Of a DNA stretch of 21,633 bases, positions 5,052-19,268 are shown in pieces. The position numbers and the translations under genes were made by a program. The stretch is from the IMG/VR virus record IMGVR_UViG_3300027782_000414, positions 1 through 21,633 of that record; one strand, written 5' to 3'. The notes under the pieces are model-generated. The model was not told the origin of the DNA. It did not search any database and saw only the letters and a list, made by a program, of their open reading frames with translations. The first letter of the stretch is position 1, and every line of letters starts with the position of its first letter. Source of the DNA: a virus.

Positions 5052-5071
5052 ACAAAGGACGAAAAAGTCAA
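5044..5071 (-). promoter_or_regulatory. Sigma70-type promoter for the uvsW/gp62 operon
   Basis: On the minus strand, TTGACT (5071-5066) is followed after 16 bases by TATACT (5049-5044), with TGC just before it as an extended -10. Predicted transcription starts near 5037, only about 9 bases before the ATG at 5028. This is a host-type early promoter, placed in one of the few real gaps of the window. Confidence 0.7.
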
Positions 5072-5087: not shown

Positions 5088-5492
5088 ATGAGAAGGAAAA
5101 GAGCAATAAAATTAAGACGTAAAATACAAGTGGAAACACTTAATGATCGAGGTCCTTATCTTACCAGTAGACGTGCTATAGATCTTTGGTTTCGTTATAT
5201 CAATCGAGCAGTGTTTGATAACCGATTGCCCGATTTTGACAAAATTATAATCAAAAAATGGTTGAAGCAGGCAATGGGGCAGGTGTGTGCATATCCAGAT
5301 ATTAATCCCACAAGATTTGAATTAGAAATGCTAAAAAAATATAAAACCAAGAGAGATTTTATAGAGACACTAGCACACGAAATGATTCATTTATACCAAA
5401 TGAAATTAAAGAAAGATAGCGGCAATCACAACAGTATATTCTATAGTTTTAGACCAAGATTTAAATTTATTGGTTTAGGACTTTCTTTGTAA
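5088..5492 (+). CDS. SprT-like zinc metalloprotease domain protein
   Basis: A 134-residue protein with the zincin motif HEMIH at residues 97-101 and a third ligand at His114 in GNHNSIF, the spacing seen in SprT/Spartan-type proteases. The N-terminus is very basic (MRRKRAIKLRRK), fitting a DNA-associated protein. Cellular Spartan cleaves proteins crosslinked to DNA; the role of the short phage versions is unknown, though DNA repair or removal of bound host proteins are natural guesses. A GGAG ribosome-binding site lies at 5079-5082, six bases before the ATG. It is the only gene between 1 and 12632 read left to right, and its last 26 bases are antisense to the end of the next gene. The C-terminal zinc ribbon found in some SprT proteins is absent. 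Confidence 0.85.
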   Translation: MRRKRAIKLRRKIQVETLNDRGPYLTSRRAIDLWFRYINRAVFDNRLPDFDKIIIKKWLKQAMGQVCAYPDINPTRFELEMLKKYKTKRDFIETLAHEMIHLYQMKLKKDSGNHNSIFYSFRPRFKFIGLGLSL

Positions 5493-6204
5493 ATTCCTCG
5501 TAAGTCATTAATTGAGTATTTTTTAAATCAGTACCACTCTGTAGATGATGCATTGGCAATGTGGGATTGTTATGTACAATTGTAAATCGACAATACGGTC
5601 TTTGTTTTATTAAGGTTCTAAATTGTTGTAACCAAGCATCAAAAATAACATCGCTGTTTCTTTCTCCATAAAATTCTGTGTCTTGATAGATATTATTAAG
5701 TTTACCTTTGCCATATTCTTGAAAATCAAAACCTATAAGATATATGTTTTTATGTCCGTGTACACAGGCTGTCCACATGGCTTGTTGACCGGATACCCAA
5801 TAAGGATTATTAGGTATAAGATTTATTTTTCCAGGATATCGATTAACTTCTAGAGAAGGAGCATAGCATATACATTTTTCATAAACTCGATCCTCTACTA
5901 TACCTTTAGTAATCTTAGAATCAACCATGAAAAGATAATCAGGTACAAAATCTCTATAGAGAGCATTACATCCATATGTTTGTCCAGATGCTTTTAAGAG
6001 AGTTAAATTAAATCCTTTTCTAGATGGGCCGTTACCAATTATATAAGCATTACCCTTAGACACAGCTTTAACTTGATCTTCATAGAATGTAGTTTCTTGT
6101 ATTTTTTTACCGCCCTTGATTGTTATTTTTGTTATTATTGTTTCTCCAGTGTATGGCTGCCACTCGATGGGTTTAATATCTTCTAATCTACCGATAATCT
6201 TCAT
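5467..6204 (-). CDS. DUF115/GT42-like protein, putative sugar transferase
   Basis: A 245-residue protein with a Rossmann-like N-terminus, AYIIGNGPS at 53-61, then a GCNALYRDF segment (78-86), a YLFMVD segment (90-95) and IYLIGFDF (154-161). The G-N-G-P-S plus G-F-D-F pair is typical of the DUF115 (MptE-like) family and of GT42 sialyltransferases, whose members act on sugar nucleotides or pterins. No membrane segment is visible. It is the last gene of the leftward carbohydrate block and overlaps the preceding putative glycosyltransferase as ATGA, which favours a glycan-related role. Donor and acceptor are unknown. Its end overlaps the opposite-strand sprT-like gene by 26 bases. Confidence 0.65.
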   Translation of the reverse strand: MKIIGRLEDIKPIEWQPYTGETIITKITIKGGKKIQETTFYEDQVKAVSKGNAYIIGNGPSRKGFNLTLLKASGQTYGCNALYRDFVPDYLFMVDSKITKGIVEDRVYEKCICYAPSLEVNRYPGKINLIPNNPYWVSGQQAMWTACVHGHKNIYLIGFDFQEYGKGKLNNIYQDTEFYGERNSDVIFDAWLQQFRTLIKQRPYCRFTIVHNNPTLPMHHLQSGTDLKNTQLMTYEEFTKKVLNQ

Positions 6205-7073
6205 TTAATATATTTCTCCTCAAGTCTTTGTCTTATTCTTTGCCATGGCAAGCCTTCTCGTATCTCTGGCACTGTCCATTCAGTATAAGCTAATTTATTT
6301 GCCCATTGCTGACGTTCAGGCATAACAGGATTTTCAATTGTTGTTAAAGAATGATTTCCTACGTCATAGCATAGGCTTGATTCACTTACAAATACAGGTA
6401 TACCGTTGATAACAGATTCCATTGCTGGATTAGAAGAATGATTAATTACTGCCCATGAAGAATTTAAAGTTTTTTTAAAATCTGTATCATCGTAGGTACT
6501 CTTATCTCTCTGTGGTTGTCCTATTTTAACATCTGTATATTTTTTTTCATTAAAATCAAATATATTTCTAGGATGTGGTCTTATTAATATAGGACGACTA
6601 CTATACTTTCTAATTTCAATTATTTGTTGCTCAATCCAGTCTGCCATGGTTGGTTTGCCTCTCCACTGATGACTGGTGTCATGTTGTCCACATACTATTA
6701 TAGTATCTCCGTTTTGTTTCCATGGTTTCATTTCTATATTAAACTTGGGCCAACGTTGAGCATCAAAATTATCATTTGCAAAGTCAGCATCTCTATTAAT
6801 TCCATTAATGCCCATCTTCCATGTGCTGTTTCTTTTAAGTCCTCCTACCTCCATTACCACAACAGGTTTTTTTCTTTCTTGAAAATTATTCCATATTTTT
6901 CTATTGGCAGACATTCTGCCAGACCATAACACAGACCAAATAACAGCAACATCACAATCTTCGTCTTTGTTAATAGATATTTTTTCTCCTTTTGCTCGTA
7001 GATGTTCTATGAAAGCAGCAAACACAGGCCTGCTATTAATGCTACCATTCTCTGGAAATACTGCTATTTTCAT
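6201..7073 (-). CDS. KpsS/RPHP-type putative glycosyltransferase, paralogue A
   Basis: A 290-residue protein with the features of capsule-export/Kdo-transferase-like (KpsS/KpsC) and CDP-glycerol transferase-like GT-B proteins: an IIVCGQHD strand mid-protein, RPILIRPHPRN, and a later AVINHSSNPAMESVINGIPVF that matches the sugar-nucleotide-binding N-S-x-x-x-E-x-x-x-x-G-x-P pattern. The C-terminus carries a WANKLAYTEWTVPEIREG tail shared with three other proteins here (9711-10694, 10684-11499, 12633-13445). I chose the ATG at 7073-7071, which overlaps the previous stop as ATGA and gives an N-terminus (MKIAVFPENG) like those of its neighbours; the ATG at 7115 would lie well inside the upstream gene. 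Donor and acceptor are unknown. Confidence 0.7.
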   Translation of the reverse strand: MKIAVFPENGSINSRPVFAAFIEHLRAKGEKISINKDEDCDVAVIWSVLWSGRMSANRKIWNNFQERKKPVVVMEVGGLKRNSTWKMGINGINRDADFANDNFDAQRWPKFNIEMKPWKQNGDTIIVCGQHDTSHQWRGKPTMADWIEQQIIEIRKYSSRPILIRPHPRNIFDFNEKKYTDVKIGQPQRDKSTYDDTDFKKTLNSSWAVINHSSNPAMESVINGIPVFVSESSLCYDVGNHSLTTIENPVMPERQQWANKLAYTEWTVPEIREGLPWQRIRQRLEEKYIK

Positions 7074-7978
7074 TTTATTGATGTTGGAGCTTTCTTCCAA
7101 TAATCCACGTCCCATACATTAACAGGAGCATCCTTCATTGGAGGTCTTAAATCTGCTTTAGCACTGCTGCCTAGTTTTTTTCTTTTGCCTTTCATGTGGT
7201 CCATATATAAACCCAATTCACTATTAATAAACACATGATGTCCTTTGACATTTTTTCCATATCCAATATCATTTACTTGTATGTTGTATTTCTCTTGAAA
7301 TTTTCTAGCTAGGTGCCAGAATACAAAACTATCATGCCATTCTAATAATTGAAATACTTCATTAGTAATATATAATTTTTCCCATTCAGCAACAAATTCT
7401 TGCGTGTTAGGATGTTGTAAATTATATCCTACAAATCCACACTCGGGATATTTGCCACCATCTTTTAATGCATATCTTTCTCTGCCTAAAAAAGTTAACA
7501 TAGTATCTCGAGGTAACAGAGTCTCAAGAAAATTTAATGGCAACGGTCTAAATGTAAAAGTATCAGCATCAATCCATAGTACATAATCATAATTGGGGGA
7601 ATTTCTCACAGCATTGATTACACAGAAAACTTTATTACTAAATCTCACAGCGTCCCAAAGAAAAGATCCTTTATTTTTATCCAATCCACCCTGTTGTTGT
7701 AGAACAGCAGGTCTTCTAACTCCCCCTGCAATCTCTTGTAATTCTCCACATGCCACAGGATCGTTTTTATGTTGATTTTTAAATTTTAATAATTCTGGTT
7801 CAGCTGAATTGAGATCAATCCATGTAATTCTAGGATGATCGTAATTGGGTTTAGGTTCTTCAAGATAAACCACAAGATCAATTTCGTTGGGCCATTGTTC
7901 AGCAATACTCTTAATACCTCTGCCAGAATAAAGATCCCATGTGCCTGGTTTGTAGGAAGTGATTACTTTGATTTTCAT
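7070..7978 (-). CDS. GT-A-fold glycosyltransferase with DxD motif
   Basis: A 302-residue protein opening with a strand-turn pattern typical of GT-A enzymes (MKIKVITSYKPGTWD). A metal/nucleotide-binding DxD motif lies in DYVLWIDADTF (DAD at 137-139). A His in LGLYMDHMKGKRKK near residue 260 may be the second metal ligand, as in GT8/GT77-like enzymes. A soluble enzyme is likely: there is no signal peptide or membrane segment. It probably transfers a sugar from a nucleotide-sugar donor with retention or inversion unknown. It lies 12 bases after asnB and couples to the next gene by ATGA. Confidence 0.75.
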   Translation of the reverse strand: MKIKVITSYKPGTWDLYSGRGIKSIAEQWPNEIDLVVYLEEPKPNYDHPRITWIDLNSAEPELLKFKNQHKNDPVACGELQEIAGGVRRPAVLQQQGGLDKNKGSFLWDAVRFSNKVFCVINAVRNSPNYDYVLWIDADTFTFRPLPLNFLETLLPRDTMLTFLGRERYALKDGGKYPECGFVGYNLQHPNTQEFVAEWEKLYITNEVFQLLEWHDSFVFWHLARKFQEKYNIQVNDIGYGKNVKGHHVFINSELGLYMDHMKGKRKKLGSSAKADLRPPMKDAPVNVWDVDYWKKAPTSIK

Positions 7979-7990
7979 ATTCTATTTAAT

Positions 7991-9709
7991 TTAATAAGTC
8001 ATTTGATATTTTTTTATCCAGTCTTTCATAATCCAAGCCGGAACTAGAGCTTTGCCAGCTTTTTGACTCACTGTAACTTGATCCAACATAGACTTTTCTC
8101 CCATGCTGCTTGTATAAAAGTTTTTTAAATTTTTATCGGAACCTCCTGCTAACCATTGTCCAAGTGGTACAGTCCATCCTGTTTTCGGTTTATTGATTAT
8201 TGCATCTGGCAGTAATCCTTTGTAAGCAATTTTGCTTAACATTTTAGTTTCATGTTTATTTTTACCTATTTTATAACTCGTTGGTATATCTAAACAATAT
8301 TGCATAAACATTTTTGTAGTTAACGGAAATCTTCCTTCCATACCAAATGCCATACCGTATTTGTCATTCCTAGAGAAGAATTCGTTGGGTGCTTGTGCCA
8401 CACAATCGAGTGCCATGTAAGACGCTACAGGATCTGCAGGATTCCATAAAGTATCGGGATACAATTTTATTAATTCTTCTCTCAGCACTGTGGCTGGCAA
8501 AGTTGGAACTCCTACTATTAATGGTCTTTTTATTCTTTGTAACCATTTGTCTATTATACTACTCCATGAATTAAACTTTTCATCTTTCATCTTCCAGTAC
8601 TTAGGATATCCTCCTATTATTTCGTCACCCATATCTCCTGCCATGGTTATGATAGTGCCTGCTTCGGATAATTTACGATTAGTATGATAATACATACTCA
8701 TGCTAGGATTGTATACAGGTTGCTCCATGTAATAGATGCTGTCTTCCCATGCTGCAATCACATCATTAGGAGTAATAATAACTTCTGTGTGATTAAATTT
8801 TTCTTTCCCCGCTAATATTTTTGCACAGGTAGCATCACTATTGTAATCTTCATCTGTTACAACATTGGGCTGCATTTTATTAGTAAATGTATTCACAGCG
8901 CCATGTATCTTCATCATTTCGTATGCTACTATACTACTGTCTAATCCACCGCTGAGGAACACTCCCATCTGTCTTCGTCCTATGCTGCACATCTGTACAG
9001 TCTTTCTAACTTTATCTCTAAACTCTGCAGGATTAAAAGAAGAGTTGGATCTAGGAGTGATATAAATTCTTTCTGATGATTTTATTTTTTTATTTGTACA
9101 ATCATAAGTGATTGTTTCTCCAGGCATCAATTGTTTTATGTTAGAGAAGAACGTGTTTCTGGTAGCATTAATACCTGTTAGACTCATACAACTGATTGCT
9201 AACTGATCTATCTTTCTAGAATTGGGTACTCGATCCAACATACCTTTTATTTCAGAACCAAATATTAATCCTTCTGCTGTTTCGGCATAGTATAAAGGTT
9301 TAATACCAGCGTGATCTCGACTTAATATTAAATGTCTTGTTTGAGTATTATAATAAGCAAAAGCATGCATACTATCAATCTGCTCAACAAATTTTCCACC
9401 ATAGCGGTCTAATCCCCACGCTAACAGTTCTGTATCACAGGTGGTCTTGGGTTGAAATTCTGTATATTTTTTTATTAAATCAAAATAATTAAAAATCTCT
9501 CCATTATAAATTAATATGTTACCTCTTTCGGTACGCCATGGCTGATGTGAAACTGTGGGTTGATCGGTTATGCTTAAAAGATTGTGTCCTAGAGTAACAT
9601 AGTCATCGTTCCAGATATCGTGTCCATCTGGTCCTCGATGTTCACAAATCTTTATATACTTTTCTATAAATTCTCTATCTCGTTTGGTTATACCATATAT
9701 GCCACACAT
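7991..9709 (-). CDS. asnB: Glutamine-hydrolysing asparagine synthetase
   Basis: A complete 572-residue class II amidotransferase/asparagine synthetase (E. coli AsnB has 554). Cys2 of MCGIYGI is the N-terminal nucleophile; HRGPDG (24-29) and NGEIFN (69-74) form the glutaminase site; SGGLDSS (253-259) is the ATP-binding P-loop, and GDMGDE lies further on. The synthetase releases ammonia from glutamine and uses ATP to make an amide, classically aspartate to asparagine. In bacterial polysaccharide clusters, AsnB-like enzymes often amidate sugar acids, and its place among glycosyltransferases favours such a use here, though host amino-acid metabolism is also possible. A ribosome-binding AGGA lies six bases before the ATG. 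The TATAAT directly beside the ATG is too close to be a -10. Confidence 0.93.
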   Translation of the reverse strand: MCGIYGITKRDREFIEKYIKICEHRGPDGHDIWNDDYVTLGHNLLSITDQPTVSHQPWRTERGNILIYNGEIFNYFDLIKKYTEFQPKTTCDTELLAWGLDRYGGKFVEQIDSMHAFAYYNTQTRHLILSRDHAGIKPLYYAETAEGLIFGSEIKGMLDRVPNSRKIDQLAISCMSLTGINATRNTFFSNIKQLMPGETITYDCTNKKIKSSERIYITPRSNSSFNPAEFRDKVRKTVQMCSIGRRQMGVFLSGGLDSSIVAYEMMKIHGAVNTFTNKMQPNVVTDEDYNSDATCAKILAGKEKFNHTEVIITPNDVIAAWEDSIYYMEQPVYNPSMSMYYHTNRKLSEAGTIITMAGDMGDEIIGGYPKYWKMKDEKFNSWSSIIDKWLQRIKRPLIVGVPTLPATVLREELIKLYPDTLWNPADPVASYMALDCVAQAPNEFFSRNDKYGMAFGMEGRFPLTTKMFMQYCLDIPTSYKIGKNKHETKMLSKIAYKGLLPDAIINKPKTGWTVPLGQWLAGGSDKNLKNFYTSSMGEKSMLDQVTVSQKAGKALVPAWIMKDWIKKYQMTY

Positions 9710-9710
9710 A

Positions 9711-10694
9711 TTATAATCCTAATCTCTGTTTAAATCTACGAAACACTGTGCCATTTTTAATTTCTTCTGTGGTCCACATCTTATATCCTAAGTCATTCAA
9801 CCATTGTGTTCTATCAGGCAGTTCTGGTGATTCTATTTTGGTTAAATCTCGATTAGCCACAGGCCAGCATATTGCTAGATCTGACGTACAGAAAGTAGGT
9901 ATACCTCTCACACAACTGTCTGTGCTAGCTGTTGAATTGTGTGTTACCACAGCATGACAATTAGCAATTGCTTCTTGAAAATTGAATCTATAAAATTTTT
10001 TATTATCTCCAGAAAAAAACTTAGGACCTATCACTAATTCAACATCGCTAGGAAATTCTTTTGCTCTTTCTGCTATAGCTGCCATATGATTAGGATGTGG
10101 TCTTACTAAAAACTTTCTAGCAGTTAATGGTCTTAATGTTTTATAAACTCCATTAAACCAATCAATTGGATCTAACTCGTTCATACTCCAGTTATCCTTA
10201 GGCTGTAGAACAAACAGTATTGGATCCTCTGGATTAGATTTTCTCCATGGATCATTTTTAATATTCCATAATCCTTTCATCATTTCCCAACGGTCTGGTG
10301 GAGAGTTATCTGACAAAAAGTTACCATTGTTCATGGGAGAATACAGAGCTACTCTCCAGTGATGACGAGGATGATCCACTGTGTTTCCAAAACTGCTCAG
10401 CAAACCACCATCAAATGTGATAATATAGATACCTTTCTTTTTGGCACGCTCCACAAGGTCTCTCCTTCTGCCCTTGGTGTGATGCATCTGTTTGTCTCCA
10501 CCATAACCAAACATACAACCAATCGGGGCGGTGGGTTCCATTTCATCCTGACGCCAATCTCCTGTGAGATGTTCATTAACAATCACAGGTTCATCACCAG
10601 ACTTTCTTACACCTTCGGCCATGTGTTGCAATAATTCCCAACTAGCGCCTCGACGTCTATCTTTTACTGTTCTTCGAAATATTTCAACTTTCAT
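9711..10694 (-). CDS. KpsS/RPHP-type putative glycosyltransferase, paralogue B
   Basis: A 327-residue member of the local family. It has KFLVRPHPNHM (RPHP motif), HAVVTHNSTASTDSCVRGIPTF (donor-binding N-S-T...G-x-P) and the shared tail WLNDLGYKMWTTEEIKNG near the C-terminus. The N-terminus (MKVEIFRRTVKDRRRGASWE) is basic and differs from the other three, suggesting a different acceptor. It overlaps the upstream paralogue by 11 bases and ends one base before the asnB start. No membrane segment is seen, so it would act in the cytoplasm, on a lipid-linked or nucleotide-linked acceptor. The exact reaction is unknown. Confidence 0.7.
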   Translation of the reverse strand: MKVEIFRRTVKDRRRGASWELLQHMAEGVRKSGDEPVIVNEHLTGDWRQDEMEPTAPIGCMFGYGGDKQMHHTKGRRRDLVERAKKKGIYIITFDGGLLSSFGNTVDHPRHHWRVALYSPMNNGNFLSDNSPPDRWEMMKGLWNIKNDPWRKSNPEDPILFVLQPKDNWSMNELDPIDWFNGVYKTLRPLTARKFLVRPHPNHMAAIAERAKEFPSDVELVIGPKFFSGDNKKFYRFNFQEAIANCHAVVTHNSTASTDSCVRGIPTFCTSDLAICWPVANRDLTKIESPELPDRTQWLNDLGYKMWTTEEIKNGTVFRRFKQRLGL

Positions 10695-11499
10695 CTAATA
10701 CCTTCCATGCCCAACCATTTCGCATTTCTTCTGCTGTGAATTGTCCGTATGCTAGAGAATAATAACAAGGTTCTCTATCTGCATACTTGGGTGTTTCTAT
10801 TTTTGCAAAATTTGTTTCTGCTATAGGAGCGCATGAGTTCATTGAATCTGTGTACACAGGTATACCTCTTGCTGTGGCTTCTATGGTTATGTTGCTGTTG
10901 AATGCTACTATAGCATGAGTATCATTCCAATCAATTGGCGTAATAGTATCTTCATTGTCACTAGGTCCAGGCATCAGTCGACCCAACTCATCTATTTTGC
11001 TGTCTGGGTTATATCCTTTGTTTCTCACAACTATCTCTCGATCAGTGTTTGCTCGTAGAGTTTCTAAAGTTTTAGATAACCAATCTTCCTGTTCGAACAT
11101 AACTGCTATGCTGTGTGTAGGAGGACATACCACAATTTTACGACCACTCTTTTTCCATGGTTCTATTTTAAATGGAAAATATTTTTTAAAACGATCATCG
11201 GGTCTAGATTCTAAAAAATTCTTTGTGTGGCCGTTTTTGGTTATTCTCATTAGATAAGGATTGCCTCGGCTCTCCCCCCAGTAAGGACGATCCATGAAAT
11301 AAAAATCAATCTTATTTTTTTGAGCCCAATGATATACCATGTTAGTGCCTCTCAATATTCCCATTAATATAACTTTCTCAGCATCTCTTTGTTGTATTAC
11401 TTGATCGTATGGTAAAATTTTTGATCCTGGTAATCCTTGCTGTGCCCATGTTATGTATTTCTCTGTAGCGGGTCTATCGGTTTTGCTGAGATATATCAT
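10684..11499 (-). CDS. KpsS-like putative glycosyltransferase, paralogue C
   Basis: A 271-residue protein most like the plus-strand paralogue at 12633-13445: both contain a FYFMDRPYWG / YWYTDTPYFG segment near residue 70, a P-[DS]-D-R-F segment, an IVVCPPTHSI / ILICPSSMGI strand and the tail YYSLAYGQFTAEEMRNG. The RPHP motif of paralogues A and B is replaced by REIVVRNKG, so the phosphate-binding loop is degenerate and activity is uncertain. The N-S-N-I-T-I-E-A-T-A-R-G-I-P-V donor-binding segment remains. It is first of the paralogues read on the minus strand, 21 bases downstream of the GT61-type gene. Confidence 0.65.
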   Translation of the reverse strand: MIYLSKTDRPATEKYITWAQQGLPGSKILPYDQVIQQRDAEKVILMGILRGTNMVYHWAQKNKIDFYFMDRPYWGESRGNPYLMRITKNGHTKNFLESRPDDRFKKYFPFKIEPWKKSGRKIVVCPPTHSIAVMFEQEDWLSKTLETLRANTDREIVVRNKGYNPDSKIDELGRLMPGPSDNEDTITPIDWNDTHAIVAFNSNITIEATARGIPVYTDSMNSCAPIAETNFAKIETPKYADREPCYYSLAYGQFTAEEMRNGWAWKVLDES

Positions 11500-11520
11500 T
11501 TGTTATTAATTATTCTATTT

Positions 11521-12597
11521 TTATAACCGGTTAATTAATTCAAATAGAGTAGATGTATTAACGGATATATTATTAAAATCTTTTTTTCTTTTAACTCCTT
11601 TAATTTTATTTCCTGCTATTGGTACTTTCTCTCCTAGTAATACATGGTGAGATAATCCCAAATGATGACTTAATACAGGATAAACTTTCTTCTCTAATAA
11701 TTCTGTTTGACTTATTTCTATTACTTTTGTTCCTGTTTGACACCATAATAGATTAGTTAATCCAGCACCGTGTGTGGATATCACATGTGAGGCTGCTGAA
11801 AAAAGTTCTATCTGTTTCTTTGTGCTCATACCAGTTAATGTTACTGTTTCCCAACCCTGCAGAGCCATGAATACTTCTTCGGCATTGATTAATTTTCTTG
11901 CAGGTGCATCATCTCTGCTAATAAAAATTTTTCTAGTAGGAGTTAATTTTTGTCCAAACTTGTGTCGTAACCATTTCACCATTTCAGGCACAGTTATACC
12001 ATCCTCATGATTGCTCATAGACGGTGTTAATAAATGTGAGAACTTCCATGTGGTATTTTTAGGCATTACATAATATCTTAATTCTGGGAATAACTCTTTA
12101 GCCACGCTATTAAAATATTCGCTTGGACTGCTCAACACATAGATAAAATCTGTATACTTGTGACTGAAATGTTTTTCAATTAATCTAAATTTTGATATTA
12201 CATCAATCCATATGTGCCAGGCATTATTAGCACTATGTTCATCAATGGGTAACCATACGTATTTGTAAGGCTCATCGAATTGTTTGCTAGGAGCAGGTAA
12301 CGATATATCAATGTTATCTCCCCATGCTTGCCATAATCCGTGTGTCTTCTGCGGTTTATATTTGGTGTTGTGTAACAGTGGCCAAACGTGAGAAGTAATA
12401 AGATGATTTTCGTTTGTGATTATTAAAGGTAAACTATGTGCAACGCAATCATGAAATTCAGCCAAGAATGTAGGATTAGTGGTAAAAGATTTTCGAGGAG
12501 CATCAGGGTGATAATCCACAGTGTATTGATACGGTACATCCATTATATCAAAACGTTCTTGGAAGTATTGTATAGCTGATATGTTTTTTACAATCAT
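11521..12597 (-). CDS. GT61-family (DUF563) glycosyltransferase
   Basis: A 358-residue protein with the GT61/DUF563 signatures: RKIFISRDDAPARKLIN (222-238) and VISTHGAGLTNLLWC (272-286), followed by GTKVIEI. GT61 enzymes transfer pentoses, GlcNAc or other sugars in eukaryotes and surface-polysaccharide sugars in bacteria. A central NNAWHIWIDVISKFRLI gives the conserved His/Asp region. I chose the ATG at 12597-12595, not the in-frame ATG at 12651, because a near-perfect promoter (TTAACA-17-TATAAT at 12611-12639) lies between them; the longer form would also begin inside the opposite gene and add a spurious hydrophobic leader (WLTFVLFYSIII) that could be misread as a signal anchor. It starts the leftward carbohydrate operon. 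Confidence 0.82.
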   Translation of the reverse strand: MIVKNISAIQYFQERFDIMDVPYQYTVDYHPDAPRKSFTTNPTFLAEFHDCVAHSLPLIITNENHLITSHVWPLLHNTKYKPQKTHGLWQAWGDNIDISLPAPSKQFDEPYKYVWLPIDEHSANNAWHIWIDVISKFRLIEKHFSHKYTDFIYVLSSPSEYFNSVAKELFPELRYYVMPKNTTWKFSHLLTPSMSNHEDGITVPEMVKWLRHKFGQKLTPTRKIFISRDDAPARKLINAEEVFMALQGWETVTLTGMSTKKQIELFSAASHVISTHGAGLTNLLWCQTGTKVIEISQTELLEKKVYPVLSHHLGLSHHVLLGEKVPIAGNKIKGVKRKKDFNNISVNTSTLFELINRL

Positions 12598-12610
12598 TGT
12601 ATTTTGAATA

Positions 12611-12639
12611 ATTATACTATAAAATAGTACAAATGTTAA
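12611..12639 (-). promoter_or_regulatory. Sigma70-type promoter for the leftward carbohydrate operon
   Basis: On the minus strand, TTAACA (12639-12634) is 17 bases from a perfect TATAAT (12616-12611). The start should fall near 12604, about 7 bases before the GT61 gene's ATG (12597). The -35 overlaps the first codons of the opposite gene at 12633. Confidence 0.75.
12613..12626 (+). promoter_or_regulatory. Possible -10 / late-type element for the rightward block
   Basis: The plus strand reads TATACTATAAAATA just before the ATG at 12633. TATACT (12613-12618) is -10-like without a clear -35. TATAAAATA (12618-12626) is one base longer than the T4 late-promoter sequence TATAAATA. A rightward promoter must lie here, because all five genes to 16346 follow with no gap; which element is used cannot be decided. 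Confidence 0.35.
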
Positions 12640-13445
12640 CCATATACGCACCTCTAGAAAATACCAAAAGCAAATGTTGGGAAGTATTCAACGGAATCAA
12701 ACAGTCTTGGCCTGCTGAAGTTAAAATAAACAGTAATTCAGAAAAGACAGCACAATCTCCTGCAATGTTTTGGGGATTTGTTAATAATAATATTAACCTT
12801 GTGCATCAGTTAGAACAGCAACAATTAGATTATTGGTATACCGATACTCCTTATTTTGGAAGATTTGATAATAATAATTTAAAAGAAGATAATCATTATT
12901 GGAGAATTTGTAAGAATCAAATACATGCTAGATACTGGAGAGATTGTCCATCAGACAGATTCAACAAATTTAATTTAAAAATTAAAACAAGAGATAAAAA
13001 TCAAGGAGAATATATTCTTATCTGTCCTAGCAGCATGGGCATACACACATATCTTAAAAAACCCAACTGGCTAAATGATACTGTTAAAGAAATAAAAAAA
13101 TATACTGATCGGCCTATTAAGATTAGAGAAAAACCTAGAAAGGCCGGCACATCTGGTCCTGCTGTGGCTGATATACCTTTAGAAAAAGATTTAGAAAATG
13201 CATGGGCATGCGTAACCAGTTGTAGTATCAGTGCAGTAGCAGCAGCACTAGAAGGAGTGCCTGTATTCAGTGACCCAAAAAGTTTTGCTTGGTCTATGTC
13301 ATCTGCGAGTCTATCTGAAATAGAAGATCCATTATATCTAGATCCTACACAATGGTTATACTCATTGGCATATCAACAATTTACTCCTCAAGAATTTGCC
13401 AATGGCACAGCTGTCAGTATTTTAAAAGAAATTAGAATGTTATGA
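12633..13445 (+). CDS. KpsS-like putative glycosyltransferase, paralogue D
   Basis: A 270-residue relative of the protein at 10684-11499, on the opposite strand: shared DYWYTDTPYFG (about 66-76), CPSDRF, YILICPSSMGIHTYL, and the tail WLYSLAYQQFTPQEFANG. The basic loop corresponding to RPHP reads RPIKIREKPRK, again degenerate. The donor-site segment is SCSISAVAAALEGVPVF, where the usual N-S is S-C. Both changes cast doubt on classical activity, or point to a distinct substrate. The gene heads the rightward operon and overlaps the next gene as ATGA. The divergent placement of two close paralogues around a shared 35-base spacer suggests duplication with inversion. Confidence 0.65.
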   Translation: MLTIYAPLENTKSKCWEVFNGIKQSWPAEVKINSNSEKTAQSPAMFWGFVNNNINLVHQLEQQQLDYWYTDTPYFGRFDNNNLKEDNHYWRICKNQIHARYWRDCPSDRFNKFNLKIKTRDKNQGEYILICPSSMGIHTYLKKPNWLNDTVKEIKKYTDRPIKIREKPRKAGTSGPAVADIPLEKDLENAWACVTSCSISAVAAALEGVPVFSDPKSFAWSMSSASLSEIEDPLYLDPTQWLYSLAYQQFTPQEFANGTAVSILKEIRML

Positions 13446-14077
13446 ACATAGAAAAAATAAACGGATTTTGGGTACCCAGCAACGACATACATGCGGAACA
13501 ATGGCGTCAAGGACAACCATTCACGCAGAATAAATGTCTTAAAGAATTTCTTGATTGGTGCCAAGCCCATAATCAAAAATTTAATACAGTATTAGATATT
13601 GGAGCATGGTGCGGAACATGGAGTGCAGAATTTGCACCATATTGTAAAAAGATATATGCTATTGAACCAGACCGAACACACGTTGAATGTCTTTTAAAAA
13701 ACCTTTCTTCATTTGATAATATAGAACTATTAGATTATGCTGTAGGAGATGTTGAAACCACGGTATCATTGACCGATGATGATTTTACACAAGCTAGAAG
13801 AATTTATTCAATAGGTACGATATCAATGAAGACTGTGGATTCTTTTCAATTTGAAAACGTTGATCTAATTAAAATAGATGTAGAAGGATTTGAAATGAAT
13901 GTGCTTCGTGGAGCAAAAGATACACTAAAAAATTGTAATTTTTTAATGATAGAATTAAACAATAATTCAAAAAAATATAATTCTAGCAATGCAGAAATAG
14001 AAAAATATCTACAGGAGTTGGGTTTTACCACATTAATAGACAAATGGCCAGACAAGGTCTTTATTAGGAATAATTAA
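13442..14077 (+). CDS. FkbM-family SAM-dependent methyltransferase
   Basis: A 211-residue class I methyltransferase. Motif I is VLDIGAWCGTW (50-60), the acidic residue ending strand 2 lies in YAIEPD (72-77), and the family hallmark LIKIDVEGFEMNVLRGA is at 142-158. FkbM-type enzymes usually O-methylate sugars or polyketides, often in surface-polysaccharide clusters. Here it would cap or modify a sugar of the glycan built by neighbouring transferases; the target hydroxyl is unknown. The start overlaps the preceding stop as ATGA; the next gene starts 6 bases after its stop. Confidence 0.85.
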   Translation: MNIEKINGFWVPSNDIHAEQWRQGQPFTQNKCLKEFLDWCQAHNQKFNTVLDIGAWCGTWSAEFAPYCKKIYAIEPDRTHVECLLKNLSSFDNIELLDYAVGDVETTVSLTDDDFTQARRIYSIGTISMKTVDSFQFENVDLIKIDVEGFEMNVLRGAKDTLKNCNFLMIELNNNSKKYNSSNAEIEKYLQELGFTTLIDKWPDKVFIRNN

Positions 14078-14083
14078 TATATC

Positions 14084-15085
14084 ATGAAGATTTTTATAAC
14101 AGGTGTTGCTGGATTTTTAGGATCGCATCTAGCAGATCTAATGATATCTAATGGTCATCAGGTTGCTGGTAATGACAACATGATAGGCGGTTATAATGAT
14201 AATATACCAGAGGGTGTGGAGTTCCATCAGATCGATTGTCGAGATTTAGATAAGATGACTGAAGCCATGCGAGGCAGTGATATAGTGTATCATTGTGCCG
14301 CGACTGCGTATGAAGGATTGAGTGTGTTCAGTCCGTTGTTAGTAACTCAAAATATATTTGAAGCATCAGTATCCACAGTAACAGCAGCAATTAAAAATAG
14401 AGTTAAAAGATTTGTTTATTGTAGTTCCATGGCAAGGTATGGAACCAATCAAGTGCCTTTCCGCGAAGAATATGAACCCAAGCCACAGGATCCATATGGT
14501 ATTGCCAAAGAAGCAGGAGAACGAGTGATTAAAAATTTATGTGATACACACGGTATAGAATGGAACATAGCAGTGCCACATAACATTGTGGGGCCTAGAC
14601 AGAAATATGATGATCCATTCCGTAATGTGATGAGCATTATGTTGAATAGAATGCTGCAAGGTAAAGCACCTGTGATATATGGAGACGGAGAACAGAAAAG
14701 ATGTTTCAGTTATATTGACGATTGTCTTTATTGTTTGAATGAATTAGCATTCAATGAAAATGTCAAAGGCGAAATAATCAATATTGGCCCAGACGAAGAA
14801 TTTGTAAGTATTAATGAATTATCAGCGTTGTGTGCTAATGAAACAGGCTGTAATCTAGATCCTATACACTACGAAGATAGACCCAAAGAAGTAAAACTAG
14901 CCACGTGTTCAGCTGATAAAGCTCGTCGATTATTAAATTATTCTACTACTACTAATTTAAAAACTGCTGTAAAGAAAACTGCAGATTATATACGACAAAG
15001 AGGCACACGAAAATTTAAATATCATCTTCCATTGGAAATAATCAGTGATAAGACTCCCAAGACATGGAAAGATAGATTAATATAA
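14084..15085 (+). CDS. NAD-dependent sugar-nucleotide epimerase/dehydratase
   Basis: A 333-residue extended short-chain dehydrogenase. The NAD-binding loop is GVAGFLGS (7-14), the catalytic pair is in YGIAK (Tyr138, Lys142), and the Ser region is CSSMARYG (113-120), equal to the S-S-x-x-x-Y-G of UDP-sugar epimerases. Length and motifs fit UDP-glucose 4-epimerase, dTDP-glucose 4,6-dehydratase or related C4/C5 enzymes, but the substrate cannot be read from these motifs. It supplies a nucleotide-sugar donor to the local transferases. It lies 6 bases after the FkbM-type gene and its TAA overlaps the next ATG as TAATG, which ties it to the methyltransferase genes on both sides. Confidence 0.85.
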   Translation: MKIFITGVAGFLGSHLADLMISNGHQVAGNDNMIGGYNDNIPEGVEFHQIDCRDLDKMTEAMRGSDIVYHCAATAYEGLSVFSPLLVTQNIFEASVSTVTAAIKNRVKRFVYCSSMARYGTNQVPFREEYEPKPQDPYGIAKEAGERVIKNLCDTHGIEWNIAVPHNIVGPRQKYDDPFRNVMSIMLNRMLQGKAPVIYGDGEQKRCFSYIDDCLYCLNELAFNENVKGEIINIGPDEEFVSINELSALCANETGCNLDPIHYEDRPKEVKLATCSADKARRLLNYSTTTNLKTAVKKTADYIRQRGTRKFKYHLPLEIISDKTPKTWKDRLI

Positions 15086-15618
15086 TGTTGTCACAACTCA
15101 ATAAAGAGACACAGAGTGATAAAGGCACACATCATAGTTACATTGATAGGTACTATGAAGAAACTTTAGCCAACTATAAAGATAAAACAATTACTCTATT
15201 AGAAATTGGAGTTAATGCTGGACGATCTTTAGAATTATGGGCAAAATATTTTAATGAAAGTAGTACAATAATAGGAATTGATAAAAAAATGACCGTGCCA
15301 TATAAACCATCTAAAAAAAATATGCATTATATTATTGGAGATGCTACCAAAGAAGAAATTGTAAAAAGATTTGATAAACTTGATATTATTATTGATGACG
15401 GTTCTCATAGAATACAAGACCAACTTAAATCGTTCAATCTTCTCTATCCTAAATTAAAAGAAGACGGAGTTTATATTATAGAAGATATACGAGATATAGA
15501 CAGTACTATAAAACAATTTAAAGATTTAGAAAACAGTCATAAAGTAAATGTTAAAATTTTTGATTTTAGGAATTTAAAAAATATAAAAGATGATGTTATT
15601 GTGGAGATAAGAAAATGA
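15085..15618 (+). CDS. SAM-dependent methyltransferase (macrolide O-methyltransferase/CmcI-like)
   Basis: A 177-residue protein with TLLEIGVNAGRSLELW (37-52) as motif I, an aspartate at the end of strand 2 (IIGIDKK), and IIIDDGSH (101-108), the metal-binding signature of the TylF/MycE and CmcI-like groups. The N-terminal SDKGTHHSYIDRYYE matches the D-K-G-x-x-H-x-Y start of those sugar O-methyltransferases. It probably methylates a sugar hydroxyl; the FkbM gene two places upstream is a different family, so two distinct methylations are likely. Translationally coupled to both neighbours (TAATG at its start, ATGA at its end). Confidence 0.75.
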   Translation: MLSQLNKETQSDKGTHHSYIDRYYEETLANYKDKTITLLEIGVNAGRSLELWAKYFNESSTIIGIDKKMTVPYKPSKKNMHYIIGDATKEEIVKRFDKLDIIIDDGSHRIQDQLKSFNLLYPKLKEDGVYIIEDIRDIDSTIKQFKDLENSHKVNVKIFDFRNLKNIKDDVIVEIRK

Positions 15619-16346
15619 TTTCAATACTATGTCCATCTAGAGGACGTCCTATGTTAGCTAAAAGAATGATAGACACCATCTATAAAACAGTTAGCCAACC
15701 TAAGAATGTAGAAATATTATTGTATCTAAACGAGGATGACCCAACACTAAATGATTATAAAAAGTACATCGATAAAAGACATTACACAATAGGACCCAAT
15801 CAAAGCACTTGTTATAGTTGGAATCAATTGGCTGAAGCAGCCAAATACGATATATTATTTTTAGCAGGAGACGACATACAGTTCATGACTAAAAATTGGG
15901 ATCTTAATATTATAAAAGTATTTGAAAAATTTCCAGATAAGATTTGTATGGCTGCTCCTTTTGACGGCAATGGCAAAGGCAACGGCACAGCATTATTAAC
16001 CAACGAAGAGCCTTATCAGTTAAAAGAAAGTGAAAGAGTTGGAAGTCCACATTTTGCCGTGCATCGAAACTGGATGAAAGTACTAGGGTATTTTGTTCCG
16101 CCATTTTTTTGGCACTGGTATGTGGACACATATAATCAAACTGTTGCTAAAAAACTTGGGAGATGTTTTTATCTAACCAAAACATTGATTCAAGCAAAGA
16201 AAGTTTTTGATGATACTGCTGTGTTAGTTAGAAAAAATTTAAATATTAACGTTAGAGATGATTATGTGTGGGATAAAATTAAAGATCGACACTTAGATGC
16301 TGACGTTAAAAAACTACAAGAATTTATAGACAATTATAAAGATTAA
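15615..16346 (+). CDS. GT2-like glycosyltransferase
   Basis: A 243-residue GT-A enzyme. It opens MISILCPSRGRP, followed by LLYLNEDDP (35-43) and a metal-binding DxD-like LFLAGDDIQF (GDD at 85-87). The later SPHFAVHRNWMK and FFWHWYVDTYN segments sit where GT2 enzymes bind the acceptor. No membrane segment. It is the last gene of the rightward block and its stop overlaps the stop of the opposite gene by 4 bases, so there is no room for a terminator between them. Donor unknown. Confidence 0.72.
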   Translation: MISILCPSRGRPMLAKRMIDTIYKTVSQPKNVEILLYLNEDDPTLNDYKKYIDKRHYTIGPNQSTCYSWNQLAEAAKYDILFLAGDDIQFMTKNWDLNIIKVFEKFPDKICMAAPFDGNGKGNGTALLTNEEPYQLKESERVGSPHFAVHRNWMKVLGYFVPPFFWHWYVDTYNQTVAKKLGRCFYLTKTLIQAKKVFDDTAVLVRKNLNINVRDDYVWDKIKDRHLDADVKKLQEFIDNYKD

Positions 16347-16804
16347 GATAATAATCTTTTTATTTTTTCATTAGTTGTTTTATCGAAGTAAAGTTCACAA
16401 AAAGGTCTTTGAGGTAACTCGTGTTTTCTAGGCAATACTGTAAAATTTTTCTCTGTTTCTAATATTAACATAGTGTTGTGCCAATAACTTAATGTTTTTT
16501 TATTAGTTCCGTTTGTAAGTTCTACTTCCCCACCTTTGCTTTTATCTGTACGTTGTTGAAAAAACCAGTAACCGATATATTCATTATTTTTTCGAGGAGT
16601 TAGCATATGAGTGAAGTCGTTATGGAAATAAACTTCAACACACATCTCATAAATGAAATTGGTCCAATGAGGATGTTCTATATTATTCCATTGTTCGTAT
16701 AGTTTATCATAGACATCTCTACGCACAAGAGTACTGGACCAAATATATGGTATGGGAGTTTTAAAACAATCAACTTTGGGTATTAACCAACGATCGTCGC
16801 TCAT
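16343..16804 (-). CDS. Unknown protein in the carbohydrate block (153 aa)
   Basis: I do not recognise this protein. It starts MSDDRWLIPKVDCFKTP and is rich in Trp, Tyr, Phe and His (HWTNFIYEMCVEVYFHNDF), as carbohydrate-active proteins often are, but it has no DxD, P-loop or methyltransferase motif. I chose the ATG at 16804-16802, which overlaps the previous gene's stop as ATGA, instead of the ATG at 16837. Its place directly after a GT8-like gene, coupled in translation, suggests a helper or a second domain split from a longer transferase. The end meets the opposite gene tail to tail with a 4-base overlap. Confidence 0.6.
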   Translation of the reverse strand: MSDDRWLIPKVDCFKTPIPYIWSSTLVRRDVYDKLYEQWNNIEHPHWTNFIYEMCVEVYFHNDFTHMLTPRKNNEYIGYWFFQQRTDKSKGGEVELTNGTNKKTLSYWHNTMLILETEKNFTVLPRKHELPQRPFCELYFDKTTNEKIKRLLS

Positions 16805-17475
16805 GATGAGAATAGATTTATTAATTCTTTCTTCCAAACGTCACTGTATTCACAATTTCTATAGTTTTCAAACCACGGTCCGCCTTCTGTATAATGTAAT
16901 ATTTTTGGAGCACCGTCTCGAGGTTCTTTATACCATCCTACTAACCAGTTATACTCATGAGGTAGAGATCCAATGTCAGAATCTTCTAACCAACTAAATC
17001 TATGTAAAAATTTGCCTGTTTCTTTGTTTAATAATTCTGGAGTAAGAATTCTATTTTTAGGATGAGCGCAATTCCATAATACCATGGAACTCCAGTTTTT
17101 TCTAGGATATGCTAGTTGCATTTGTCCGTCCATTTTAACACCCTCAGGAGGAGTGTAATCGTGTTGTACACACACCACTGCTTTACTATCATCACAGTAT
17201 TGTTTTAATTCGTCAGCATCTATCTGCCAAACAAAATCGCAATCACAGAACACTGCCCAACCTTGATAATTTTGTAGATACGGTATAAAAAATCTTGTGA
17301 ATGTAAATTCTGTGCTGGCTAGTTTATCTATTTCTCTAGTGTAAATTCCAGCTTCTCTAAGAGTTTTCATTTTTAAAGGTTCTACTTCGGTATTTCGATT
17401 TCTACGTTTGATTGAGTGCTCACATACTTGATACGTGATATCTTCTCGTGGATCGTAACCTACATATACTTTCAT
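16801..17475 (-). CDS. GT8-like glycosyltransferase
   Basis: A 224-residue protein with the GT8-like start MKVYVGYDPREDITYQVCEHSI, the DxD motif in AVFCDCDFVW (DCD at 78-80), and a C-terminal HYTEGGPWFENY, equal to the H-x-x-G-x-x-P/K metal and donor site of GT8. Length and motifs fit soluble retaining enzymes found in several T4-like marine phages. Donor and acceptor are unknown. It overlaps the upstream nucleotidyltransferase-type fragment by ATGA, so the enzyme that activates a sugar and one that could use it are translated together. Confidence 0.8.
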   Translation of the reverse strand: MKVYVGYDPREDITYQVCEHSIKRRNRNTEVEPLKMKTLREAGIYTREIDKLASTEFTFTRFFIPYLQNYQGWAVFCDCDFVWQIDADELKQYCDDSKAVVCVQHDYTPPEGVKMDGQMQLAYPRKNWSSMVLWNCAHPKNRILTPELLNKETGKFLHRFSWLEDSDIGSLPHEYNWLVGWYKEPRDGAPKILHYTEGGPWFENYRNCEYSDVWKKELINLFSS

Positions 17476-18077
17476 AGTTTTCCTTCCTCTCGCATCTTCT
17501 TTCTAATATCTGTAGCAGAAATTTTTTGTATATTTTCTGGCAAAACAATTTCTTCTATCTTATAACCAACTCCTCTACCATAACAAATATTAGTTATATT
17601 TGGTACTAAAGTTACTCGAATTCTATTTTTGTAAGGTTGTAATGCTTGTTCTATATTCTTTTTAACTGTTTCAAAATCAAATGGATTGTCTCCTACACCC
17701 TGTACATCTCGAACCTGTATGTTTACTTGTCCTGTCTTTTTAACTATTTCTTCAAATAGAGCCTGGTGTCCTTCGTGCCATGGTTGCCATCTACCCAACA
17801 TCTGAGCTGTGGGTCGACGATTATCCCAAACATACTCTTGTATTTCATCTGCTATTCTCAAAGACCATAATTCAGCATTTTGTGTGGGTACTCGAAAATC
17901 ATATTCTTGTGGTGGCACAAACATTTTATTAGTATCTTCAAATCGTCCTTCTTTGATAGTATCTACCCACACGATATAATCAGCAGCAAAGTCCTGTCTA
18001 GTTTTTTCTGTAGGACAAACAAAGTCTGCAATCACGTGTTTGCCACGGTCTAATCCTTCTTGTGCTAGGCGTTTCAT
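17472..18077 (-). CDS. C-terminal part of a split kinase/nucleotidylyltransferase
   Basis: The rest of a gene whose N-terminus is in another frame (17998-18246). Residues 1-80 continue an APS-kinase-like (CysC) fold: a KRLAQEGLDRGKHVIADFVCP strand and a FEDTNKMFVPPQEYDFRV end segment. Residues 91-201 form a nucleotidylyltransferase: MLGRWQPWHEGH (HEGH at 101-104, the HxGH motif) and ISATDIRKK (186-194). The sequence before the ATG remains open in this frame and reads VEQAER, which fits the kinase family, so the true protein started upstream. It may be made alone from this ATG, giving only the transferase half, or as a fusion through frameshifting. Substrate unknown; sulfate/APS, a sugar phosphate or a polyol are options. 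Confidence 0.6.
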   Translation of the reverse strand: MKRLAQEGLDRGKHVIADFVCPTEKTRQDFAADYIVWVDTIKEGRFEDTNKMFVPPQEYDFRVPTQNAELWSLRIADEIQEYVWDNRRPTAQMLGRWQPWHEGHQALFEEIVKKTGQVNIQVRDVQGVGDNPFDFETVKKNIEQALQPYKNRIRVTLVPNITNICYGRGVGYKIEEIVLPENIQKISATDIRKKMREEGKL

Positions 18078-18246
18078 TCGTTCTGCTTGTTCTACCCTCG
18101 GGAGAAAAATCCCAATCGTTGGCTTCTGCTCTTACTCGATCAGCATTTAGCCACACAGCACCCAGTAAGGTCGCTAGTTTATCAGAGAGATAACTCTTAC
18201 CCGAGCCTGGTAATCCCATTACTAATATTTTTTTATTTTTTACCAT
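17998..18246 (-). pseudogene. N-terminal APS-kinase-like fragment, frameshifted
   Basis: A reading frame of 82 codons; the first 51 or so are a P-loop kinase start: KKILVMGLPGSGKSYL (Walker A at 11-18), WLNADRVRAEANDWDFSPEGR (the D-x-V-R...D-F-S-x-E-G-R segment of APS-kinase-like enzymes). After the glycine near base 18096 the frame becomes nonsense (TSRTNETPST and on) and ends at 17998. The correct continuation is in the +1 frame from about 18095 and gives VEQAERMKRLAQ. A loss of 5 bases from a tandem GTAGA pair, an assembly error, or ribosomal shifting could explain it. It overlaps the HAD gene upstream by 14 bases. Confidence 0.65.
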
Positions 18247-18826
18247 GTATGATTTTATGTATGTGTTGCCAGTTATTTACTCGGGTGATATTTTCATGTT
18301 CTAAACCCTGGTTGTAATCATGATTATATAATAATGGTCGTAAACCATATTCTAATCCTTTTTTAGCATTGGTCCATTTATCTTCTACCCACCATAAATT
18401 TGTACCGTGAAATTCTGCCAGTGCTGCATCTTTATGATCTCCTGTTTCTAATATAAAGAAATTTGTAAACACAGTATCTCCAAATAATTCTGCCAATCTT
18501 CTTTTTCTTAATTCCTGTGCTGGTATATCTGATGTTTGTGATGTTATAGGTATAAATGTCCAGCCTTCTGCATGCAATAATTTTACCCAAGTCTGTGCAT
18601 CTGGCATGGGTTGTTGTGTACTCATCCATGCACTCTTATTAAATTCTCTAACTAATTCTCGAGAAAGATCTTTGTGTATGCCATATCGAATACTCATATC
18701 GTATTCATGATCTGTATTTTTTAATTGGGGAAATCCTTTGGTTGCCATCCATTTATTAAAATGGTCTTCCCATTCTAATAGTACACCATCAACGTCTGTA
18801 AGTATTATTCTATCTGATTGTGGCAT
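18233..18826 (-). CDS. HAD-superfamily phosphatase
   Basis: A 197-residue HAD protein. Motif I is LTDVDGV (10-15 region, Asp11 nucleophile, Asp13 acid/base), motif II is ITSQ (93-96), and the acidic motif IV is VEDKW (146-150). There is a helical cap between motifs I and II (about 22-80). HAD enzymes of this size remove phosphate from sugar phosphates or nucleotides. Lying directly before a kinase/nucleotidylyltransferase, it recalls the kinase-phosphatase-nucleotidyltransferase order of ADP-heptose synthesis, but the kinase family differs, so the substrate is open. It overlaps the upstream gene by 17 bases. Confidence 0.75.
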   Translation of the reverse strand: MPQSDRIILTDVDGVLLEWEDHFNKWMATKGFPQLKNTDHEYDMSIRYGIHKDLSRELVREFNKSAWMSTQQPMPDAQTWVKLLHAEGWTFIPITSQTSDIPAQELRKRRLAELFGDTVFTNFFILETGDHKDAALAEFHGTNLWWVEDKWTNAKKGLEYGLRPLLYNHDYNQGLEHENITRVNNWQHIHKIIHGKK

Positions 18827-19268
18827 CTTCCATACCAGCCACTCGGAGTTTAACTATGTTAGTTAACTGCCATTGTTTTTGATCTAAACCTTTGGTTATA
18901 CCTAACCATTTATTTCTTAATAGAGCAAACTCATTAATAATTTTTTCCATATCTACTACGTCAGATTCTCCGTCCACATACTTGTCTGCGTCTCTAGATG
19001 TCAATGCTCTATTATAATTTTCTAGGAATTTTTTAAATGTTCTTGATCTTAATCTTCGATTTTCGATATTAAGATACTCTAATATTGCTTCTATTTCTTG
19101 CAATTGATTGAATCTTTGCTCTACTACTCCTGGCAGCGATGCTGCTGCTTTTTCTAGATTACCAAATATATATATTTCTTTTCTTGCTGTTTCTAATTCT
19201 TGATCGAAATATTTTATGCAGTCAGGTATTAGACCAATATCCTGACTTACTTTAGTGTACCAGCTCAT
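18810..19268 (-). CDS. Conserved T4-like protein, possible UvsY-type recombination mediator
   Basis: A 152-residue, all-helical, charged protein (LPGVVEQRFNQLQEIEAILEYL, then a basic NRRLRSRTFKKF). The stretch TSRDADKYVDGE followed by a long helix and a KQWQLTNIVKLRVAG end resembles the layout of UvsY (137 residues in T4), where a basic KxR motif binds ssDNA and a C-terminal helix forms the hexamer. UvsY loads UvsX onto gp32-covered DNA, and both of those genes lie just upstream. I see no diagnostic motif, so the match rests on size, fold type and neighbourhood. Its TAATG start couples it to the 74-residue gene. Confidence 0.45.
   Translation of the reverse strand: MSWYTKVSQDIGLIPDCIKYFDQELETARKEIYIFGNLEKAAASLPGVVEQRFNQLQEIEAILEYLNIENRRLRSRTFKKFLENYNRALTSRDADKYVDGESDVVDMEKIINEFALLRNKWLGITKGLDQKQWQLTNIVKLRVAGMEDATIR

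Follow-up and report, generated by a model that had tools for sequence, protein, structure and literature searches.

A conserved carbohydrate block with an uncatalogued two-class GT-B family in the recombination core of a large uncultured phage lineage

The IMG/VR virus record IMGVR_UViG_3300027782_000414 (21,633 nt; the whole stretch is referred to here as the window) carries a block of carbohydrate genes at 5467-18826, lying in the recombination core between uvsY and uvsW. Phage surface-sugar genes as a kind, and viral kdsA and kdsB (PMC5332604, PMC10653327), are already known. New are a conserved gene skeleton at a defined core site, an uncatalogued two-class GT-B glycosyltransferase family, and the links of the block to KdsA-KdsB and to bacterial islands. 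We propose that the block is a cytosolic assembly line of the lipooligosaccharide (LOS) core type, made of soluble enzymes, probably using 3-deoxy-D-manno-oct-2-ulosonic acid (Kdo) or another ulosonate, and remodelling the host surface; on this proposal we stand evenly balanced between belief and doubt. The source is a large, uncultured virus of bacteria, probably marine.

The block holds nine candidate glycosyltransferases (A, B, C, E, F, G, H, L and N), an AsnB (D), two methyltransferases (I and K), an epimerase (J), M, a kinase/nucleotidylyltransferase (O) and a HAD protein (P), as follows.

5467-6204, minus strand: A, GT42-like (CstII-type) transferase; profile match to CstI/CstII 1.6e-5, Foldseek match to CstII 1.8e-5
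6201-7115, minus strand: B, new GT-B family, class 1 (Q, RPHP); family BLASTP and motif alignment
7070-7978, minus strand: C, GT-A-like transferase; invariant D137/D139 (DAD)
7991-9709, minus strand: D, AsnB-type glutamine amidotransferase, accessory; TIGR01536, Cys2 present
9711-10694, minus strand: E, new GT-B family, class 1; modelled, Foldseek match to 6mgb 5.4e-8
10684-11499, minus strand: F, new GT-B family, class 2 (P, R-x-K); family BLASTP and motif alignment
11521-12597, minus strand: G, GT61 transferase; PF04577 6e-21
12633-13445, plus strand: H, new GT-B family, class 2 (S, R-x-K-P); family BLASTP and motif alignment
13442-14077, plus strand: I, FkbM-family methyltransferase, accessory; PF05050 8e-18
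14084-15085, plus strand: J, NAD-dependent sugar epimerase/dehydratase, accessory; PF01370 4e-45, PDB epimerases 9e-39
15085-15618, plus strand: K, methyltransferase (Methyltransf_24); family match, 41% to an alphaproteobacterial island gene
15615-16346, plus strand: L, PHROG glycosyltransferase; phrog_14945 1e-29
16343-16837, minus strand: M, accessory; no significant family match
16801-17475, minus strand: N, GT8/WbbM-like transferase, skeleton gene; phrog_28018 2e-53, WbbM 0.0076
17472-18246, minus strand: O, fusion of an adenosine 5'-phosphosulfate (APS)-kinase-like and an NMNAT-like nucleotidylyltransferase part; two open reading frames (ORFs) here, 17998-18246 and 17472-18077
18233-18826, minus strand: P, HAD-type protein, skeleton gene, start ..DVDGVL..; phrog_420 7.5e-29

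Relatives were collected by scans with UvsW, UvsX and UvsY, which gave more than 200 loci, and interval lengths were taken from loci with both flanks. Every relative with a UvsW identity of at least 76% had an interval of 9.7-19 kb. At 56-65% identity some relatives had an interval of 7.7-12.5 kb, and 16 IMG/VR relatives had a near-empty interval of about 1.2-2.0 kb, which in those inspected held a single ORF between uvsY and uvsW resembling p453, a core protein of no assigned function. Because the empty sites inspected keep p453 alone, the block is an insertion between uvsY and p453. The sprT gene is missing at the empty sites and accompanies the block in the close clade. A first-pass annotation of the window had already set the block inside the recombination core and suggested a comparison of the junctions; this placement held, and the site proved empty or differently filled in relatives instead of carrying one invariant block.

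Members of the close clade largely keep the order P-N-H-G-F-E-C-B-A-sprT-p453, and among them O, M, L, K, J, I and D were gained, lost or moved, D being missing or truncated in several. The first-pass annotation had taken amidation plus two methylations to suggest a specific glycan, but D, I and K are variable trim and do not define the set; it is the skeleton that is fixed. Mantel correlations with UvsW distances gave r of 0.55-0.77 for A, B, C, E, F and G and 0.18 for H, a value to which paralogue mix-up may contribute. The skeleton is thus partly vertically inherited, and free exchange as a cassette does not describe the block. The accessory genes of relatives encode methyltransferases, a mannose-6-phosphate isomerase/cupin and cytidylyltransferase-like proteins, and further a 2-oxoglutarate (2OG)-Fe(II) oxygenase, a sulfotransferase, SufB, a radical SAM protein and a GT25. 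SufB-type Fe-S assembly genes lie within the sugar cassettes of two close relatives (L226:14750-16180 and L229:5440-6870), and a twitch-domain radical SAM protein is encoded between P and N at L236:13228-14433 (NF033640, 302 bits against a cut-off of 170).

B, E, F and H are stand-alone proteins of 270-327 aa. They are mutually paralogous (BLASTP 1e-11 to 1e-26), and none of the four gave anything significant in Pfam, PHROG or PDB sequence searches. Structural prediction, which the first-pass annotation had recommended, was run for E and A, and E was the only family member modelled. The E model was confident (predicted local distance difference test score, pLDDT, 91.7; predicted template modelling score, pTM, 0.90). 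Its top PDB matches were KpsC (6mgb, 5.4e-8), KrkA and WbbB at template modelling (TM) scores of about 0.5, which places E in the modified GT-B fold. Its best viral matches include several capsule-type proteins of the algal giant virus Tetraselmis virus 1.

The family alignment comprised 101 members from the loci of relatives. Ser254 (100/101) and Arg135 (99/101) are conserved across the whole family. Positions 164 and 200 showed perfect covariation, Gln164 occurring with His200 (class 1, 56 rows) and Pro or Ser164 with Lys or Arg200 (class 2, 45 rows). In retaining Kdo transferases, a (K/R)XHP motif binds cytidine monophosphate (CMP) and a QXXXD motif holds the nucleophile (PMC12887879, PMC10148158). 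The (K/R)XHP motif is present in class 1, where R198 and H200 were found in all 56 rows and P201 in 54, and it reads RPHP in both B and E of the window; F and H have R-x-K instead, with Lys for His. The Gln of QXXXD is kept in B and E, with Asp at +2 in B and +3 in E, and exact QXXXD occurs in 9 of the 56 class-1 rows, none of them from the window. Since the strict motif failed, B and E were not filed as retaining beta-Kdo transferases (GT99, GT107 or GT140). KpsC (GT107), WbbB (GT99) and KrkA (GT140) share their fold with E and the (K/R)XHP motif with B and E. The phage family differs from them in the lack of any sequence match, in the QXXXD and His positions just described, and in that the phage proteins stand alone, in sets of four. 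A degenerate scan with the whole family alignment was dropped as conservation was too low.

Two class-1 and two class-2 copies were found in 8 of 9 complete close-clade cassettes. Three copies were called in the ninth, L233; because B matched there in a separate comparison, the fourth was probably lost to ORF overlap. Most records of the window lineage have 3-5 copies of the family, and no member was found in the named jumbo phages Phosso or Atu_ph07.

A matched the profile of GT42 sialyltransferases over about 30 residues at the GNGPS region (1.6e-5). GT42 enzymes use CMP-sugars. The best PDB match of the A model (pLDDT 89.9) was CstII (1.8e-5, TM 0.47), and an MptE-like HPPK was weakly matched too. 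A resembles CstI and CstII in the GNGPS region and in its modelled fold, so that it is called GT42-like here, and it differs from these GT42 enzymes in the TM-score of only about 0.47 and in a conserved N-terminal beta extension.

Genes for Kdo synthesis were found in relatives of the window. In the 357-kb relative G001, genes for a Kdo-8-phosphate synthase (KdsA) and for a KdsB-like cytidylyltransferase lie past uvsW, at a distance of about 1.5-3.5 kb. Three of four KdsA proteins scored above the TIGR01362 cut-off of 314 bits (326.6 in G001, 325.0 and 322.9), and that of L241, at 313.5 bits, fell below it by 0.5. The cytidylyltransferases gave 102-130 bits with TIGR00466, below its cut-off of 155.2, and are for this reason named KdsB-like; their best matches were all KdsB models. 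A scan with G001 KdsA found at least 589 viral relatives in IMG/VR, of which 80 loci were kept; these were picked by KdsA, so that their number is no frequency. More than half of the 80 belong to a sister clade with KdsA at the orf167-orf148 site. Sister loci covered upstream have N, a class-2 glycosyltransferase, a class-1 glycosyltransferase, C, a class-1 glycosyltransferase and uvsW, with KdsA a few kb away, and the KdsB-like gene follows KdsA directly or closely in most of the 15 sister loci inspected. In another phage group (L245, L248, L265 and L270) the distance between KdsA and an A-like, GT42-like gene (GNGES) is about 1 kb, and the close-clade cassette L095 has a KdsB-like gene beside a class-2-type glycosyltransferase. 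Like the viral reports that already list KdsA and KdsB (PMC5332604, PMC10653327), these loci hold Kdo-synthesis genes in marine viruses; there they are single auxiliary genes, whereas here KdsA and the KdsB-like gene are syntenic with a glycosyltransferase block.

Some further features of the KdsA loci were observed. KdsA with an adjoining KdsB-like gene occurs at L224:3802-5900, in L242, L250, L278 and L306, and in others. L245, L248, L265 and L270 have a HAD-type gene a few kb further on. Beside KdsA at the orf167-orf148 site are a uroporphyrinogen decarboxylase-like gene (HemE, 202 bits, below cut-off) and a MetK-like gene recognised by eye (L254:10764-11738, L256:8618-9709).

Genes of the block also have relatives in bacteria. 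When genomes were scanned with AsnB, a single close relative (47%) came up, in an uncultured alphaproteobacterial single-cell genome, where it adjoins a class-2 family member and lies near a K homologue (41% to K). Bacterial AsnB of 45-47% identity was found near a class-2 glycosyltransferase; L323 is the uncultured Alphaproteobacteria single amplified genome (SAG) AG-365-O06. In the same alphaproteobacterial order, 62 of 162 genomes have a member of the GT-B family, mostly as a single copy, and N homologues occur in 91 of the 162. G168 and G184 each have an island that brings together N (56-58%), a class-2-like and a class-1-like glycosyltransferase, C (30%) and a TPR-like protein. The islands have a GC content of 24-28% and the bacterial genomes a size of 0.9-1.6 Mb. 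Phage and bacterial rows are interleaved in the N tree, with at least three label changes, long branches blurring the details; this pattern fits gene exchange.

The ORFs of the block, their order and its boundaries were borne out by an ORF check. The first-pass annotation had counted five to seven glycosyltransferases; they are there, but family, profile and fold matches give nine candidates. Its two methyltransferases, epimerase, HAD protein and AsnB were likewise supported by family matches. G is a member of GT61 (75.6 bits against the PF04577 cut-off of 27), with a likely ATG start at 12597, the ORF as listed beginning at 12651. D, which starts MCGIYG, belongs to the AsnB family (300.9 bits against 267.1 for TIGR01536), and I to the FkbM family (65.5 bits with PF05050 and 81.2 bits with TIGR01444, both above cut-off). 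J is an extended SDR epimerase with an ambiguous substrate, and C had no match in Pfam or PDB searches. P had no PDB profile match, and its reading as a KdsC-like phosphatase was dropped on that account. For the proposed kinase/nucleotidylyltransferase O the identity stood, through weak matches of APS-kinase-like and NMNAT-like type, but the gene is broken: a 5-nt loss within a short tandem repeat, relative to the 98%-identical locus L082, splits it into two frames, and in L082 it is intact as a single 259-aa ORF. The break may be a real mutation or an assembly error. With the APS-kinase and NMNAT matches weak only, O was dropped as a complete PAPS (3'-phosphoadenosine 5'-phosphosulfate) synthase. 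Sulfation by the block is not claimed, sulfotransferases being found in few relatives only. With dN/dS mostly 0.02-0.2 for its intact genes, the cassette is under purifying selection, and its genes are therefore real and not chance ORFs.

In a simple hydropathy scan, neither the window block nor the cassettes of 14 relatives yielded a protein predicted to cross the membrane twice or more. The filled cassettes examined therefore supply no flippase, polymerase or polyprenyl initiator, and by the same scan the block does not qualify as a Wzx/Wzy or ABC-type O-antigen or capsule locus, for which flippase, polymerase and transporter were not found. The set had been described as enough for activation, conversion and transfer of a sugar. 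This went too far, as the window contains no complete sugar-donor pathway, flippase or polymerase.

In LOS synthesis the outer core is assembled on lipid A-Kdo on the inner side of the membrane. Soluble GT42, GT61, GT8-like, GT25 and KpsC-like folds, together with CMP-Kdo synthesis, would fit building on lipid A-Kdo. In the assembly line we propose, class-1 B and E and also A would use CMP-activated ulosonic sugars (CMP-Kdo or a relative), which may come from the host or be made by phage KdsA/KdsB. Class-2 F and H, plus N, C, G and L, would add other sugars, and I, K, J and D would methylate, epimerise or amidate the sugars added. With flippase, polymerase and initiating transferase all lacking, lipid A-Kdo or the LOS core on the inner side of the host membrane would be the most likely acceptor. 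The product would be exported by host machinery, and the changed surface may block re-adsorption by the same or other phages, or protect the cell during a long infection. Several findings count against this proposal. The strict QXXXD motif is absent from B and E and the HP histidine is missing in class 2, so that donors may differ. Known folds are matched with TM-scores of only about 0.45-0.53. No CMP-sugar pathway gene was found within the window, and the close-clade records searched, which are fragments, yielded no KdsA, the KdsB-like gene of L095 being the exception among them. The TPR and other island genes could also mean protein glycosylation.

The glycan might instead decorate the virion or other phage proteins, the skeleton building a structural particle glycan with variable outer sugars. 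Giant algal viruses put glycans on their virions, and several Tetraselmis virus 1 proteins are among the nearest viral fold matches. The fixed skeleton with variable trim, the all-soluble enzymes and the partly vertical inheritance in the phage clade would agree with such a role, and mycobacteriophage virion glycans are known (cited in PMC12619734). We nevertheless regard it as unlikely, if deserving of attention, since homologous islands occur in bacterial chromosomes without phage context and KdsA/KdsB indicate a sugar of the lipopolysaccharide (LPS) type. Soluble enzymes could equally glycosylate host surface proteins of the pilin, flagellin or S-layer type in the cytoplasm, and not LOS. 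TPR-like proteins, FkbM methyltransferases and 2OG-Fe(II) oxygenases, which are found in the bacterial islands and accessory sets, would suit this, but the LOS and capsule enzyme folds (GT42, GT61, KpsC-like and one GT25) and the Kdo pathway genes argue against it and make it improbable.

Phage glycosyltransferases acting on DNA are known (cited in PMC12619734), and the block lies beside replication genes, so the transferases might hypermodify phage DNA against restriction. This we consider the least likely role and a very remote one: the context is one of methyltransferase, AsnB and epimerase genes, the folds are KpsC-like and GT42-like, homologues are found in bacterial surface-type islands, and a thymidylate-synthase-family enzyme was found in just 2 of 20 records, most of which are fragments. 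We give hardly any credence either to the block as a passenger, in which host genes were caught at a recombination-prone site with no benefit to the phage. The turnover of accessory genes and the broken O of the window would be expected of a passenger, but the low dN/dS of the intact genes and the constancy of the skeleton over a wide clade would not.

Returning to the LOS-core-type assembly line, we put forward a broader joint claim, tentatively and with more doubt than confidence. Uncultured jumbo phages would carry a largely self-contained Kdo-type glycan machine, with supply by KdsA and the KdsB-like protein (sister clade) and a GT-B set constant at two enzymes of class 1 and two of class 2 (window clade). 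Low-GC Alphaproteobacteria would have the corresponding surface-glycan island, of which this machine is a portable form, and the GT-B family would make up one or two new CAZy families, in which the exchange of His for Lys goes with a different donor. Sugar genes of phages commonly appear in lists as scattered LPS-type genes without an assigned use. Here the anatomy of the block constrains the candidates for donor (CMP-Kdo type), for acceptor (probably the LOS core) and for host group, and the uncatalogued two-class family is amenable to assay. If the claim is true, phages of one lineage have kept a surface-glycan pathway through long evolution, and have done so at a defined core site whose empty and filled versions are open to comparison.

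Like the LPS-type genes of pelagimyophages and cyanomyophages (PMC7029224), the block brings several glycosyltransferases to large marine phages. Those glycosyltransferases were proposed to alter the host surface and block co-infection. They lie with tail fibres in the structural region (hypervariable host recognition cluster) or in clusters of 2-3, unlike the one large ordered block with a conserved skeleton in the recombination core of a jumbo-phage lineage described here. The moraphages, aquatic jumbo phages (PMC12619734), have four putative glycosyltransferase groups in their core genome; they are mostly from freshwater with predicted Bacteroidota hosts, and are set beside the window lineage by description only. 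Pelagibacter phage Mosig (MT647606) shares two GT-B family members, an N homologue (47%), methyltransferases and a sulfotransferase, in a smaller set which lies beside ribonucleotide reductase/RuvC genes and not between uvsY and uvsW. The two family members of Mosig (L221), at 12641-13471 and 14085-14903, are annotated as hypothetical and lie on both sides of the sulfotransferase.

The minus-strand gene order of the window is gp32, uvsX, a 74-aa ORF that parts uvsX from uvsY, uvsY, the sugar block, sprT (on the opposite strand), p453 and uvsW, with four more conserved small genes beyond uvsW. PHROG matches confirmed uvsW, sprT, uvsY, uvsX and gp32, the flanks given in the first-pass annotation.

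2228-3697, minus strand: uvsW helicase, right-hand core flank in transcription order; PHROG 16, 8e-74
3694-5055, minus strand: p453, between uvsY and uvsW
5088-5492, plus strand: SprT-like protease, at the block edge in the close clade; weak PHROG matches, 5.8e-6
18810-19268, minus strand: uvsY recombination mediator, left-hand core flank; phrog_231 6e-15
19669-20742, minus strand: uvsX recombinase; phrog_97 5e-67
20821-21609, minus strand: gp32 single-stranded DNA-binding protein; phrog_1192 9e-48

The window had no nucleotide match, T4-like or other, among 50,697 phage records. The nearest named relatives by UvsW were Sinorhizobium phage Phosso (55%), Agrobacterium phage Atu_ph07 (52%) and PA5oct-like phages (51%), and by UvsX Phosso (68%). 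The marine T4-like framing of the first-pass annotation was therefore set aside: UvsW and UvsX are nearest to the jumbo phages Phosso and Atu_ph07, not to Kyanoviridae, and the lineage is T4-like in a broad sense only. By match coordinates, the gap between uvsX and uvsW is about 1.5 kb in Vibrio phage 2.275.O, CBB and XbC2, and longer in GAP32 (2.4 kb), Phosso (3.6-3.7 kb) and Atu_ph07 (about 11 kb). The p453 gene is present in filled and empty loci alike, yet it is fast-evolving, with a mean identity of about 46% in the close clade.

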